From Palleronia aestuarii (GTDB taxonomy: Bacteria > Pseudomonadota > Alphaproteobacteria > Rhodobacterales > Rhodobacteraceae): DNA of 64,000 nt. Where the stretch lies: positions 310,001 through 374,000 of the forward strand of contig NZ_QKZL01000003.1 in NCBI RefSeq assembly GCF_003253995.1, given 5' to 3'. The translations under genes were made by a program, and so were the position numbers. This document shows, one piece after another, positions 37,357 through 40,390 of the stretch (position 1 is the first letter of the stretch; each line of letters starts with the position of its first letter). The notes beneath the pieces were generated by a model that had not been told where the DNA came from, did no database searches, and saw nothing but the letters and a program-made list of their open reading frames with translations.

Positions 37357-37895
37357 GGGTCTGTTTCGACGCCTGCGTCCTCTATCCGACTGTCTTGCGG
37401 GAGATATTGGTGGGATGCGCGGGCGAGGGGCTCTATGCGCCCCTGTGGTCGGCGCGGATCCTCGAGGAATGGGCGCGGGCGACGGTGAAGCTCGGGCCGG
37501 GCGCGGAGGACGTCGCACGCGGCGAGATCGCGCGGCTTCGCAGCGAATGGCCGGCGGCGGAGGTGGTACCGCGGGCGGGCGATCTGGACCGGTTGAGCCT
37601 GCCCGATCCCGACGACGTGCATGTCCTGGCCGCCGCTATCGCCGGGTCGGCGGACCTCCTATGTACCTTCAACGCAAGGGATTTTCCGAAGGCAGCCCTG
37701 TCGGAGGAAGGAATCGTGCGGGTCGATCCCGACCAGCTTCTCCGCCAGGCCTGGCCCGGGGAGGAGGCGGGGATCCGGCGTGTGATCGAGCGCGTTCACG
37801 CGGAAGCGGAGCGGCTTTCCGGCGAGCGGATCGAGCTGAGGGGCCTTCTCAAGCGGGCGCGTTTGCCGCGGCTTGCCAAGCTCGTCGGGCGATGA
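37353..37895 (+). CDS. PIN-domain protein (RSP_2648-like)
   Basis: A 180-residue protein with a PIN nuclease fold. The acidic residues appear in order: CFDACVLYP (D6), LEEWARA, DPDDVHVLAAAI and LLCTFNARDFP. The family is named after a Rhodobacter locus. There is no antitoxin gene next to it. It is instead coupled to an rRNA methyltransferase, so a housekeeping RNA-processing role is more likely than toxin-antitoxin function. The last 50 residues form a basic helical extension. It ends one base before the M48 peptidase stop on the other strand. Confidence 0.82.
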   Translation: MRVCFDACVLYPTVLREILVGCAGEGLYAPLWSARILEEWARATVKLGPGAEDVARGEIARLRSEWPAAEVVPRAGDLDRLSLPDPDDVHVLAAAIAGSADLLCTFNARDFPKAALSEEGIVRVDPDQLLRQAWPGEEAGIRRVIERVHAEAERLSGERIELRGLLKRARLPRLAKLVGR

Positions 37896-38579
37896 TCAGG
37901 AGCCGAGCCACTTGCGCTCGTTGGCCTCGATGGCGGCGATGCGGTCGGCGGTGGCGGGGTGGCTGAGAAGCCAGGCGGGGGCGTTTCCCTTGCCGCCGGT
38001 CAGCTTTTCCAGCTTATGAAACAAGGACTTCTGCGGCGATGTGCCGATCCCGGCCTTGAGGAGGAGGGCGGAGGCGTATTCATCGGCCTCGTACTCGTCC
38101 CCGCGGGAGAGGCGCGCGGCGAGGAGGGAGGTGAGGGCGTTGGCGAGGATCGCGCCCACGCCCGGAATGATGCGCCCGAGGACCAGCATGAGCGCGGTCC
38201 GCAGCGCGTTCTGGCCGGAGAAGTCGATCATCCTGCGGCGCGAATGACCCAAGGCCACGTGGCCGAGTTCATGCGCGATGACCGAGGAAAGCTCTTCCGC
38301 CGAAACCTCCCCGGCGCGATATCTGTTGTAGAAACCGCGGGTTATGAAGATGCGCCCGTCGGGCGCGGCGAGGCCGTTCACGGGGTCGATCTCATAGATA
38401 TGCACCTTGATGCGGTCGAGATCGAGCGCCTGGGCCATCTTGTCGGTCAGCGCCTTGAGGCGCCCGTCGGCAAGCTCGGTGGACTTTCCGTCGAGCTCCT
38501 TGGCGGTGCGCCAGACGGAGAAGCGGTACATGGCGATCGCGTAGAGGATCGCGAGGAGGATCGGGAGAACCTTGATCAT
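37896..38579 (-). CDS. M48-family membrane metallopeptidase
   Basis: A 227-residue zinc protease related to HtpX and Oma1. The start MIKVLPILLAILYAIAMYRF gives one N-terminal membrane helix. The zinc motif is VIAHELGHVALGH and the third ligand lies in DEYEADEYASALLLKAG. A hydrophobic stretch near TALMLVLGRIIPGVGAILANAL may be a second membrane segment. It probably acts in membrane protein quality control. The longer frame upstream passes through the 11-bp repeat array and is not coding in my view. Confidence 0.87.
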   Translation of the reverse strand: MIKVLPILLAILYAIAMYRFSVWRTAKELDGKSTELADGRLKALTDKMAQALDLDRIKVHIYEIDPVNGLAAPDGRIFITRGFYNRYRAGEVSAEELSSVIAHELGHVALGHSRRRMIDFSGQNALRTALMLVLGRIIPGVGAILANALTSLLAARLSRGDEYEADEYASALLLKAGIGTSPQKSLFHKLEKLTGGKGNAPAWLLSHPATADRIAAIEANERKWLGS

Positions 38580-38625
38580 GCCGCCAAGATGGGGCGTCGC
38601 GACGGGCACCGCAATGCGGCGGATG

Positions 38626-38768
38626 CGTACACTGGGCGTACACGAAGCGTACACCGGACGTACCGCGGATGTGCGGCGCCCGTACACGGATCGTGCAGCG
38701 CGCGTACCGCGGGTGTCGGACCTGCGTATAGCGGATGTACGGACAGCGTACACAAGGCGTATGCCGCG
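38626..38768. repeat. Degenerate 11-bp tandem array, 13 units, helically phased
   Basis: Thirteen consecutive units of exactly 11 bases start at 38626 and every 11 bases to 38758. All thirteen begin Y-G-T. Ten have A at position 4 and ten have C at position 5, giving CGTAC or TGTAC in most units. Examples are CGTACACTGGG, CGTACACGAAG, CGTACACCGGA and CGTACCGCGGA. Eleven is not a multiple of three, so this is not a protein repeat, and the regular phase puts each GTAC on about the same helix face. The array lies 46 bases upstream of the M48 start and about 170 bases upstream of the NCS1 permease start. Confidence 0.9.
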
Positions 38769-38938
38769 CGCCCGATTAACGCGCAACGGCGCCGCGATCG
38801 GCGTCATCGAGGCCATCGAACGGCGAGCGAGCCACGATGGGGCATTGCGACCTTCCCCAACGTCACATACCGGTGAACGGGTCGGCCCTCCCGTGGAGGT
38901 GGTGGGACGACGGGCGCATTTCACGACGGGGGACCATC

Positions 38939-40390
38939 ATGCAGCCAGAGACCGATCTCAGCGTCACCCATGGGCATCCGTCGCTCTACAACGACGATCT
39001 CGCGCCGCTGCCGCACCGGAAACGCTCCTGGGGCGCGTTCGAGATCTTCAATGTCTGGTCGAACGACATCCAGTCGCTCTTCGGCTATACGCTCGCCGCG
39101 ACGCTCTTCGTCACCTCGGGGCTGAACGGGTGGTGGGTCTTCGCCGCGATCATCCTCGCGGGGCTGATCGTCATGGGGCTCGTCAACCTGACCGGATCGC
39201 CTTCGGTGAAGTACGGCATTCCCTACCCGGTGATGGCACGGGCGGCGATGGGGGTCCGGGGCGCGAACTTTCCGGCGCTCGTCCGGGGCATCGTCGCGAT
39301 CTTCTGGTACGGGGTGCAGACCTATTTCGCCTCCACCGCCGTCGCGATGCTGCTCTATGCGATCTTCGGCGGGGAGGGGACGGGGACGTTCCTCGGTCTC
39401 ACCGCCATCGACTGGATCGCCTATCTCTTCGTGTCGGCCTTCCAGGTGGCGCTGTTTTTGCGCGGCATCGAGTGGATCACCAAGTTCCTGAACTGGGCCG
39501 GGCCGCTCGTCTACGTGGTGATGATCGCGCTCGCGCTCTATATCTGGGCGGTCGCGGGCAACGGGCTCTCCACCGAGCTCGGAACGATCTTTGCGGGCAC
39601 CGGGGGCGGCGTGCTGGCCTTTCTCGGCGTTGTGGGCACGATGATCGCCTATTTCGCCGCGGTGGTCATCAATTACGGCGACTTCTCCCGCTTCGTGCGG
39701 ACCGAGCGCGAGATGAAGCTCGGCAATTTCCTGGGGCTGCCGGTGAGCCTCGCGCTCTTTTCCTTCCTCGCCATGTGGATCACGGCGGGCACCGCGGCGC
39801 TCTTCGGCACGACGCTCACGAACCCGGCCGAGATCGTGGGGCAGGTGGACAGCGTGATCCTGACGCTGATCGCGGCGCTCACGTTCTTCGGGGCGACGGT
39901 GGGGATCAATCTCGTCGCGAATTTCATCCCGCCGGCCTATGACCTCGCCAACCTCGCGCCCGCGCGCATCTCCGCGCGGACGGGCGGCTTCATCACGGCG
40001 GGCGTCGCGTTCTTCATCGGCGCGTTCTGGGTGGTCTTCATCAGCCAGATCGGCATCGCGGCCTTCGTCGACACGCTCGGCGCCGTGCTCGCGCCGCTCT
40101 ACGGGATCCTGGTCGCGGATTACTACATCGTGCAGCGGCGGCGGCTGTCGCTGCCCGACCTCTACTCGGTCGCGCCGGACGGGGCATATCACTACGACGG
40201 GGGGTGGAACCGGCGGGCGCTCTTCGCCTTCGGGATCGCCGCGATCTTCTCGATCGCGACGGTCTGGGTACCGGCCTTCGGGGCGCTGGGCGGATTTTCC
40301 TGGATCATCGGCGCGCTCATCGGCGGTGCGATCCACGTCGCCCTGATGCGGCGCGGTGCGCCCTCTCGCGAGGCTGCACCGGCCGAGTAA
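38939..40390 (+). CDS. NCS1-family nucleobase permease
   Basis: A 483-residue transporter of the nucleobase:cation symporter-1 family (cytosine, uracil, allantoin or hydantoin type). The N-terminal DLAPLPHRKRSWGAFEIFNVWSND is the family signature. About twelve helices follow, including GSPSVKYGIPYPVMARAAMG and the NYGDFSRFVR loop. The C-terminal LVADYYIVQRRRLSLPDLY is also characteristic. The substrate cannot be told from sequence, and no pyrimidine or purine catabolic gene is adjacent. ATG 38939 has GGGGGAC nearby and fits the family start. Confidence 0.88.
   Translation: MQPETDLSVTHGHPSLYNDDLAPLPHRKRSWGAFEIFNVWSNDIQSLFGYTLAATLFVTSGLNGWWVFAAIILAGLIVMGLVNLTGSPSVKYGIPYPVMARAAMGVRGANFPALVRGIVAIFWYGVQTYFASTAVAMLLYAIFGGEGTGTFLGLTAIDWIAYLFVSAFQVALFLRGIEWITKFLNWAGPLVYVVMIALALYIWAVAGNGLSTELGTIFAGTGGGVLAFLGVVGTMIAYFAAVVINYGDFSRFVRTEREMKLGNFLGLPVSLALFSFLAMWITAGTAALFGTTLTNPAEIVGQVDSVILTLIAALTFFGATVGINLVANFIPPAYDLANLAPARISARTGGFITAGVAFFIGAFWVVFISQIGIAAFVDTLGAVLAPLYGILVADYYIVQRRRLSLPDLYSVAPDGAYHYDGGWNRRALFAFGIAAIFSIATVWVPAFGALGGFSWIIGALIGGAIHVALMRRGAPSREAAPAE

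Follow-up and report, generated by a model that had tools for sequence, protein, structure and literature searches.

The stretch of Palleronia aestuarii DNA analysed here (64,000 nucleotides, hereafter the window) holds, between a gene for an M48 peptidase and a gene for a permease, a row of 13 short units that follow each other at exactly 11 bp. Such a row raises the question of what keeps its period while its letters diverge, and whether it serves the two genes beside it or something wider. A sequence-only reading had counted YGT in 13 of 13 units, A at the fourth position in ten and C at the fifth position in ten; the counts were re-read and agree. The locus is laid out as follows.

38626 to 38768, + strand: whole array, 13 units of 11 bp with the YGT anchor in each (sequence read and lag count)
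38626 to 38658, + strand: head of the array, three perfect CGTACAC-N4 units (from the sequence; the most conserved part in 21 pooled arrays)
38659 to 38768, + strand: tail of the array, ten degenerate units on the permease side (sequence read)
37896 to 38579, - strand: M48 peptidase gene, neighbour to the array head (Pfam PF01435 above cut-off)
38939 to 40390, + strand: permease of the cytosine/purine/allantoin family, neighbour on the tail side (Pfam PF02133 above cut-off)

The start of the M48 gene was set by eye at ATG 38579 by comparison with congeners, the gene caller having given GTG 38609. The array begins sharply with its three CGTACAC units and then degenerates toward the permease. 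Its periodicity is confined to one lag: the best in-register YGT count in the 64-kb window is 13/13, at lag 11 and position 38626; neither the other strand nor lags 7-10 and 12-15 exceed 6/13. A register of at least 6/8 YGT is present a single time in the window at lag 11 and not at all at lags 7-10 or 12-16. The proposal that the GTAC cores line up on one face of the helix holds only approximately. The step is close to one turn, but 11 bp exceeds the 10.5 bp of a helical turn, and the calculated drift of about 17 degrees per unit carries the 13 cores through about half a turn.

The array had also been linked to the peptidase and permease genes through its position upstream of them. The M48 gene was found in all 13 congeners (G001 to G013; P. 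aestuarii itself is G000), with differing upstream sequences and no clear 11-bp array; G013 has one weak lag-11 window there (18/28), and G003 a different TGTACA element, not the 11-bp array. Judged by the refuting condition that the sequence-only reading had set, the position of the window array is thus not conserved among the 13 congeners. At least 22 further arrays lie elsewhere in the genome, and a specific tie of the array to the M48 gene or to the permease is not supported. In G003 a similar TGTACANNTTGTACANTTC...GAAACGTACA element lies both 3' of gltD and 5' of M48 (loci L157 and L033), with spacings of about 9 and 21, not 11. A second M48-family gene (PF01435; L009, 3331-4077) borders another array of P. 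aestuarii, which starts 2 bp past its stop codon.

At least 23 arrays, the window array included, were found over 12 contigs of the P. aestuarii genome (4.54 Mb). A strict pattern of three YGTAC at 11-bp steps gave 26 forward and 25 reverse matches against none for the reversed-pattern control, and these matches make up 18 array loci, among them the window array. A blastn search with the window sequence added four loci. One more, a degenerate array that lies about 0.6 kb from another array, came from scanning about 398 kb of a single contig without a fixed word. In about 398 kb of this genome, runs of five YGT number four at lag 11 and none at other lags. Unit statistics were taken from 21 arrays, leaving aside L012 (which has one 14-bp unit) and the degenerate array of the word-free scan; L196 was likewise excluded for G001. 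The anchor is carried by 9 to 13 units per array (counted up to 13 units). Pooled units 1-3 read CGTACAC, with 1.4-2.0 bits per position at positions 1-7, and pooled units 4-12 remain strong only at G2 (1.72 bits) and T3 (1.63 bits), while C1 and C5 reach about 1.1 bits. Tail units of the type YGTNSGACATC recur by eye.

How the units came to differ was judged from their identities. Within arrays of P. aestuarii the unit identity is 0.517 (units 4-12), and between arrays (units 4-11) it is 0.540 for units of different index and 0.559 for units of the same index; in G001 the corresponding values are 0.604 within arrays and 0.610-0.632 between them (12 of 13 arrays). In either genome, units of one array therefore resemble each other no more than they resemble units of other arrays, and an origin by slippage is disfavoured. 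A coding repeat is disfavoured as well, since 11 is not a multiple of three and in any frame the shortest residue repeat compatible with an 11-bp step is 33 bp long. Both origins had been doubted by the sequence-only reading, and the comparison bears this out. Recent transposition of the arrays is rejected in view of their upstream flanks, which are unrelated (mean identity 0.30 in P. aestuarii). The top pairwise identity of arrays in this genome, 0.689, lies at the column-shuffled mean of 0.692 and was reached by 251 of 400 shuffles; the spread of the pairwise identities is 0.044 against 0.036 when shuffled, a value reached by one of 400. A little shared descent is possible, the spread being slightly wider than in the shuffles; copies related by descent beyond the column profile, as in a REP/MITE-type family, were not found, and the units behave like nearly independent samples of one binding profile.

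The placement of 44 arrays was compared using gene calls from our own codon-usage script, with a neighbour call probably missing in six of them. Tandem, convergent and divergent spacers number 14, 4 and 4 for the 22 arrays of P. aestuarii, 10, 1 and 2 for the 13 of G001, and 5, 3 and 1 for the nine of G013, and in tandem spacers 15 arrays run on the same strand as the genes and 14 on the opposite one. Contact with a called gene is absent in 40 of the 44; the four overlaps (L019, L020, L022, L196) span 11-84 bp, and in L019 and L022 the gene start had been called too early. Measured from the array head, a stop codon is no more than 25 bp away in nine of the 22 arrays of P. aestuarii, and a start codon in five.

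The named neighbours are functionally mixed and have no common theme: they include TrmFO, ArfB, CobW, lipoamide dehydrogenase, HisB-HisH, LeuD, RecN, PPK2-ligase, IlvC-GlmM, thymidine kinase, SerA-SerC, a chromate transporter, BchL-BchM and GltD, among others. No recurring DNA-binding gene was seen beside the arrays among 60 protein entries (comparison genes included), a scan that covered 30 of 44 array flanks in P. aestuarii and 20 of 44 in G001 and G013 together; the single finds were a LysR gene (L216) and one resembling a BrnA antitoxin (L194). Mixed neighbours, all spacer orientations and the lack of strand bias together argue for a role at the level of DNA that is independent of promoters. 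As a side observation, five arrays (L019, L195, L204, L218, L024) lie near genes for P-loop ATPases with a KGGxGK[ST] motif (BchL, Mrp-like, MipZ, orphan ParA), which may be chance; the name Mrp, like gltB for another gene here, is the one we presume.

The word of P. aestuarii was found in none of the 13 congeners searched. Several of them carry dispersed 11-bp arrays of their own, built on the words YGYCGGR and YGTCGGA (G001, G011, G013). YGYCGGR at 11-bp steps gave 25 matches at 13 loci in G001, eight at six loci in G011 and nine at nine loci in G013 (eight of these nine were read), and one match each in G000, G004 and G012, those in G000 and G012 being bare pattern counts; the reversed control gave none in all 14 genomes. 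The arrays of G001 mostly have 8-10 units plus end units, and several have inverted ends: by eye, a left end CGTCCCGCA in five of 13, a right end YGTCGGGACRG in eight of 13, and both in three (L151, L188-L199). The arrays of G011 and G013 mostly have three or four units. Two three-unit arrays of G013 (L210, L212) directly follow a GC hairpin and T run, apparently the intrinsic terminator of the upstream gene.

Word-free scans covered G010, which has neither word, and G004. About 398 kb of G010 yielded a single array when searched for runs of five YGT, with 11 [CTG]GT units in mixed words (CGTCCCG, TGTGCAG, CGTCGGG, CGTACAG), and no five-YGT run at lags 7-10 or 12-16; thresholds of 6/8 and 8/12 YGT gave the same. 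A looser motif ([CTG]G[TC], 9/10) matched three times at lag 12 against once at lag 11, so that word-free scans need the strict YGT anchor. About 398 kb of G004 held five-YGT runs twice at lag 11 (one at gltD, one doubtful) and once at lag 10, and only the gltD array is convincing. These scans rest on counts of YGT runs; the identity counts of one genome, which a masked run of N inflated equally at all lags, were set aside. Across the genus the word thus varies, whereas the YGT anchor and the step of 11 bp do not.

The change of word can be followed at a single place, the 3' spacer of gltD (GltD as named by NCBIfam), which in P. aestuarii carries array L025. Arrays with other words occupy the same spacer in G013 and G011 (lag-11 identity 23/28 each) and G001 (20/28). 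In G004 the identity at lag 11 is 17/28, barely above other lags, but six YGT units stand in a row; G007 has three YGT units by eye and a lag score of 14/28, which is not raised; and G003 has a different TGTACA element. No 11-bp array was found in the gltD spacer of the other seven of the 13 congeners (G002, G005, G006, G008, G009, G010, G012). In four of these (G005, G008, G006 and G010; L145, L146, L150 and L154) another, dispersed-looking element was observed, consisting of a GC-rich hairpin followed by CCCGGAGGTATTT or CCCGAGGTATTT ... GATGAAG. Another inverted motif, of the GGTCAGCA...TGCTGACC type, is found repeatedly in gltD 3' spacers of the family (L118, L127, L130, L134).

A wider panel comprised the spacers of the best 80 GltD matches listed in the named-genome collection, which were not picked for arrays and include G004 and G013; its members are related, and its counts are not independent events. 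Among these best 80, 17 spacers reach a lag-11 identity of at least 18/28, against 0-1 at lags 7-10 and 12-16. A run of three YGT at lag 11 is present in 21 of the 80 (0-5 at other lags) and a run of four in 13 (0-1 at lags 7-10 and 12-16), and the remaining 59 have no run of three. With seven of 13 congeners lacking an array and 59 of the best 80 panel spacers lacking a run of three YGT, the gltD site is dispensable. The words in the panel of best matches include YGTACAC in Loktanella, Planktomarina and Nioella, YGTGCAC in Histidinibacterium, CGTATGG in Pseudotabrizicola and SATGCAC in Oceanicola sp. m2, with CGTAGGG, YGTCTGG and YGTCGGA as further ones.

Other positions are shared as well. 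ORFs within 1.5 kb of arrays were compared between genomes, and matches below 40% identity were left out as presumed paralogs. The gltD border is common to ten genomes (G000, G001, G011, G013, G004, G198, G261, G143, G268, G036), of which the array of G013 was found only through the gltD search and the other nine were also matched by a pattern. Further common borders include leuD (G000, G001, G296), bchL-bchM (G000, G013), serA (G000, G011) and the ligase (G000, G001), together with the neighbourhood of a queuosine transporter (G000, G261); placement in the same spacer was confirmed by eye for gltD, leuD, bchM, serA and the ligase only. Seven of the 28 array loci of G001 (13), G011 (6) and G013 (9) share a border with one of 22 arrays of P. 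aestuarii, where a rough estimate would put the chance expectation below one.

Of the 394 Rhodobacteraceae genomes searched, 13 carry the strict GTAC pattern, and they fall into 13 of 393 genera; it is repeated many times over in G198, G296, G268, G261, G367 and G143. For the reversed GTAC control, which spells CATGY, there is enrichment in G152, G273 and G036 and one or a few matches in a number of other genomes. RCATG at 11-bp steps was found in all seven genomes chosen for their reversed-control matches, with none for its control, and most often in G152 (13 and 11 matches), G273 (9 and 8) and G036 (9 and 6). CATGCAC is among the 11-bp words of other Rhodobacteraceae, and three CATATG at 11-bp steps were seen by eye in G032; not all species thus keep YGT, some having CATG or CATATG cores. 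Outside the genus the arrays that were read mostly have three to five units. Among class genomes outside the family the GTAC word, the one word searched there, was found in four of 284, at a single site each. Multi-copy use of this word was seen only in the family.

The sequence-only reading had suggested a multi-copy binding array for a protein, a bent or architectural element, or a cooperatively recognised site; a multi-copy array used cooperatively by a protein is the best reading of the wider evidence, with binding as its inferred part. That a protein binds the arrays is likely, although none was identified as the binder: of the candidates compared, neither the orphan ParA nor the conserved OmpR/PhoB regulators were supported. 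It is about an even call that each array is a landing strip for a putative cooperatively binding direct-repeat protein, with 11-bp units head to tail. A protein or protein family would contact YGT in every unit; binding may nucleate on the three strong head units, proposed to be of high affinity, and would then spread cooperatively along the weaker tail units. The bound row would wind slowly round the DNA, through about half a turn over 13 units, as in plasmid segrosomes. Outside the YGT anchor the specificity of such a protein would have shifted between species and the sites would have followed. A role at the level of the chromosome, such as organisation, tethering or segregation-like marking, is a further step and about half as likely as binding itself; it is favoured over regulation of neighbouring genes because the sites ignore promoters and reading direction. 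We would tentatively regard the arrays, up to a few dozen intergenic ones per chromosome, as a marking system of Rhodobacteraceae with a fixed YGT and a fast-evolving specificity, in which each species might, with the same reserve, rewrite its arrays in step while keeping the period, the polarity and some positions. Rapidly evolving recognition by centromeres or PRDM9 in eukaryotes follows a comparable logic.

Rows of direct-repeat sites are already known; what is new, as far as seen, is their dispersal over the chromosome, with a fixed anchor and period, some fixed positions and a species-specific word. No description of dispersed 11-bp arrays in Rhodobacteraceae was found in the open-licence literature, the coverage of which was limited. 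Over time, binding sites would be expected to retain their word while their positions are lost; in these arrays it is the word that changes within a genus, and the phase and some of the positions that stay. If a protein reads the arrays, the congeners would form a natural series for a shift of recognition specificity with dozens of sites at once, and the system might point to a factor for chromosome organisation or segregation in a large family of bacteria.

Alternatively, a transcription factor for tandem 11-bp repeats (of the OmpR/PhoB type or a winged helix-turn-helix protein of the MerR/CarH type) could use the arrays as operators and regulate neighbouring promoters, which we consider unlikely. 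OmpR/PhoB-type operators have a TGT-type core repeated in the same direction at intervals of about one turn (11 bp), and the arrays share both traits in their 11-bp repeats and their own TGT-type core. Tandem repeats at such intervals are typical of both families. The operators of CarH and CarA (MerR-type) consist of three to five tandem 11-bp repeats of nnnnTnnACAn, some of them degenerate, which are bound on one face and described as plastic in design (PMC9304148), and CenR of Rhodobacter sphaeroides (OmpR family) recognises a tandem direct repeat TGA-N8-TGA (PMC9275681). Several neighbours are also amino-acid genes (gltD, leuD, ilvC, hisB-hisH, serC-serA). However, CarH operators overlap the promoters of a defined regulon with their three to five units, whereas the arrays here have 9-13 units and no promoter preference, occurring in convergent and tandem spacers; and CenR sites consist of a pair of half-sites ahead of the units they regulate and are conserved in related species, in contrast to the long, word-drifting and promoter-independent arrays, whose named neighbours are mixed. 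The placement upstream of regulated promoters that marks OmpR/PhoB operators was not found. TGTACA-like units match the TnnACA type of CarH in some species, and YGTCGGA and CGTATGG do not.

A regulator of this kind should vary with the word. In five genomes of the genus, 50 of 51 PF00486 matches were read; seven OmpR/PhoB-domain clusters among them have five members in the five genomes, and six of the seven are clean ortholog groups. In these six the DNA-binding domains, with the segment that we take to be the recognition helix at its presumed position, are nearly unchanged while the array words differ. A co-varying OmpR/PhoB regulator is thus rejected among the six clean groups, the comparison being one of these groups and not of mixed or species-specific members.

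A partition (centromere-like) function, in which an adaptor like ParB, ParR or StbA occupies the arrays together with an ATPase or a host tether, on a resident replicon or on the chromosome, is in our view improbable, although the architecture recalls it: plasmid partition sites too are rows of short direct repeats one turn apart. In plasmid R388 the stbDRs, two sets of five 9-bp direct repeats with 2-bp gaps and hence an 11-bp step like that of the arrays, are bound by StbA, and this binding acts in plasmid stability and positioning (PMC3098194). In parC of plasmid R1 with ParR, and in other ParMRC systems, tandem 11-bp direct repeats are bound by the adaptor; ParR wraps the DNA into a segrosome, and its binding specificity differs among related plasmids (PMC9426499). 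However, the stbDRs sit around the stb promoter of the plasmid, and R1 parC is a single site beside the par operon. The arrays here are dispersed over the chromosome, and no par or stb operon was seen beside those of P. aestuarii whose flanks were named (30 of 44 flanks). Sites that do lie at parA-like genes were found elsewhere.

L316, 5671-5709: four or more TGTACA units at 11-bp steps at the 5' end of a parA-like gene (IMG/VR)
L326, 8722-8760: four or more TGTACA units at 11-bp steps at the 5' end of a parA-like gene (IMG/VR)
L070, 1469-1527: six CATG units, 11 bp apart, where a parA-like gene begins (family genome G379)

These three are likely partition sites and speak for the partition alternative. 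The first two, with their arrays directly upstream of the gene, are two of 19 IMG/VR stretches; the other 17 have no KGGxGK[ST] ORF. The small gene downstream of the parA-like gene encodes 84 amino acids without a Pfam match in L326, and 79 amino acids with a weak RHH_1 match (E 0.005, below cut-off) in L070. On the chromosome, an orphan ParA gene lies beyond the next gene from one array of P. aestuarii (L024). It was found in 14 of 20 genomes searched (E <= 1e-30) and is absent from six, all with 11-bp sites (in one of the six, G032, a single three-unit one), so that it is rejected as a general partner. The non-palindromic words YGTCGGA and CGTATGG are, moreover, unsuited to one symmetric RHH dimer per unit.

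Quite unlikely, too, is a dispersed intergenic repeat family, REP/MITE-like or selfish, that is copied and homogenised within each species and has no host function. REP/BIME-like repeats have many intergenic copies of species-specific sequence, and the arrays are likewise multi-copy, intergenic and species-specific and fill short spacers; the inverted ends of several G001 arrays and the other dispersed elements in the gltD spacer of congeners also fit. Against such repeats, the arrays keep an exact 11-bp phase while their letters drift, carry hardly any signal of copy descent beyond the column profile and have unrelated flanks (0.30), and their orthologous positions are common to different genera with different words.

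An RNA-level element (terminator, Rho site or mRNA stabiliser) is very unlikely: an Rfam scan of 37800-39400 gave no match up to E 1, and although nine of 22 arrays in P. aestuarii start no more than 25 bp past a called stop codon and two of nine in G013 follow a terminator-like hairpin by eye, the arrays have no strand bias relative to transcription, with 15 on the same strand and 14 on the opposite one.
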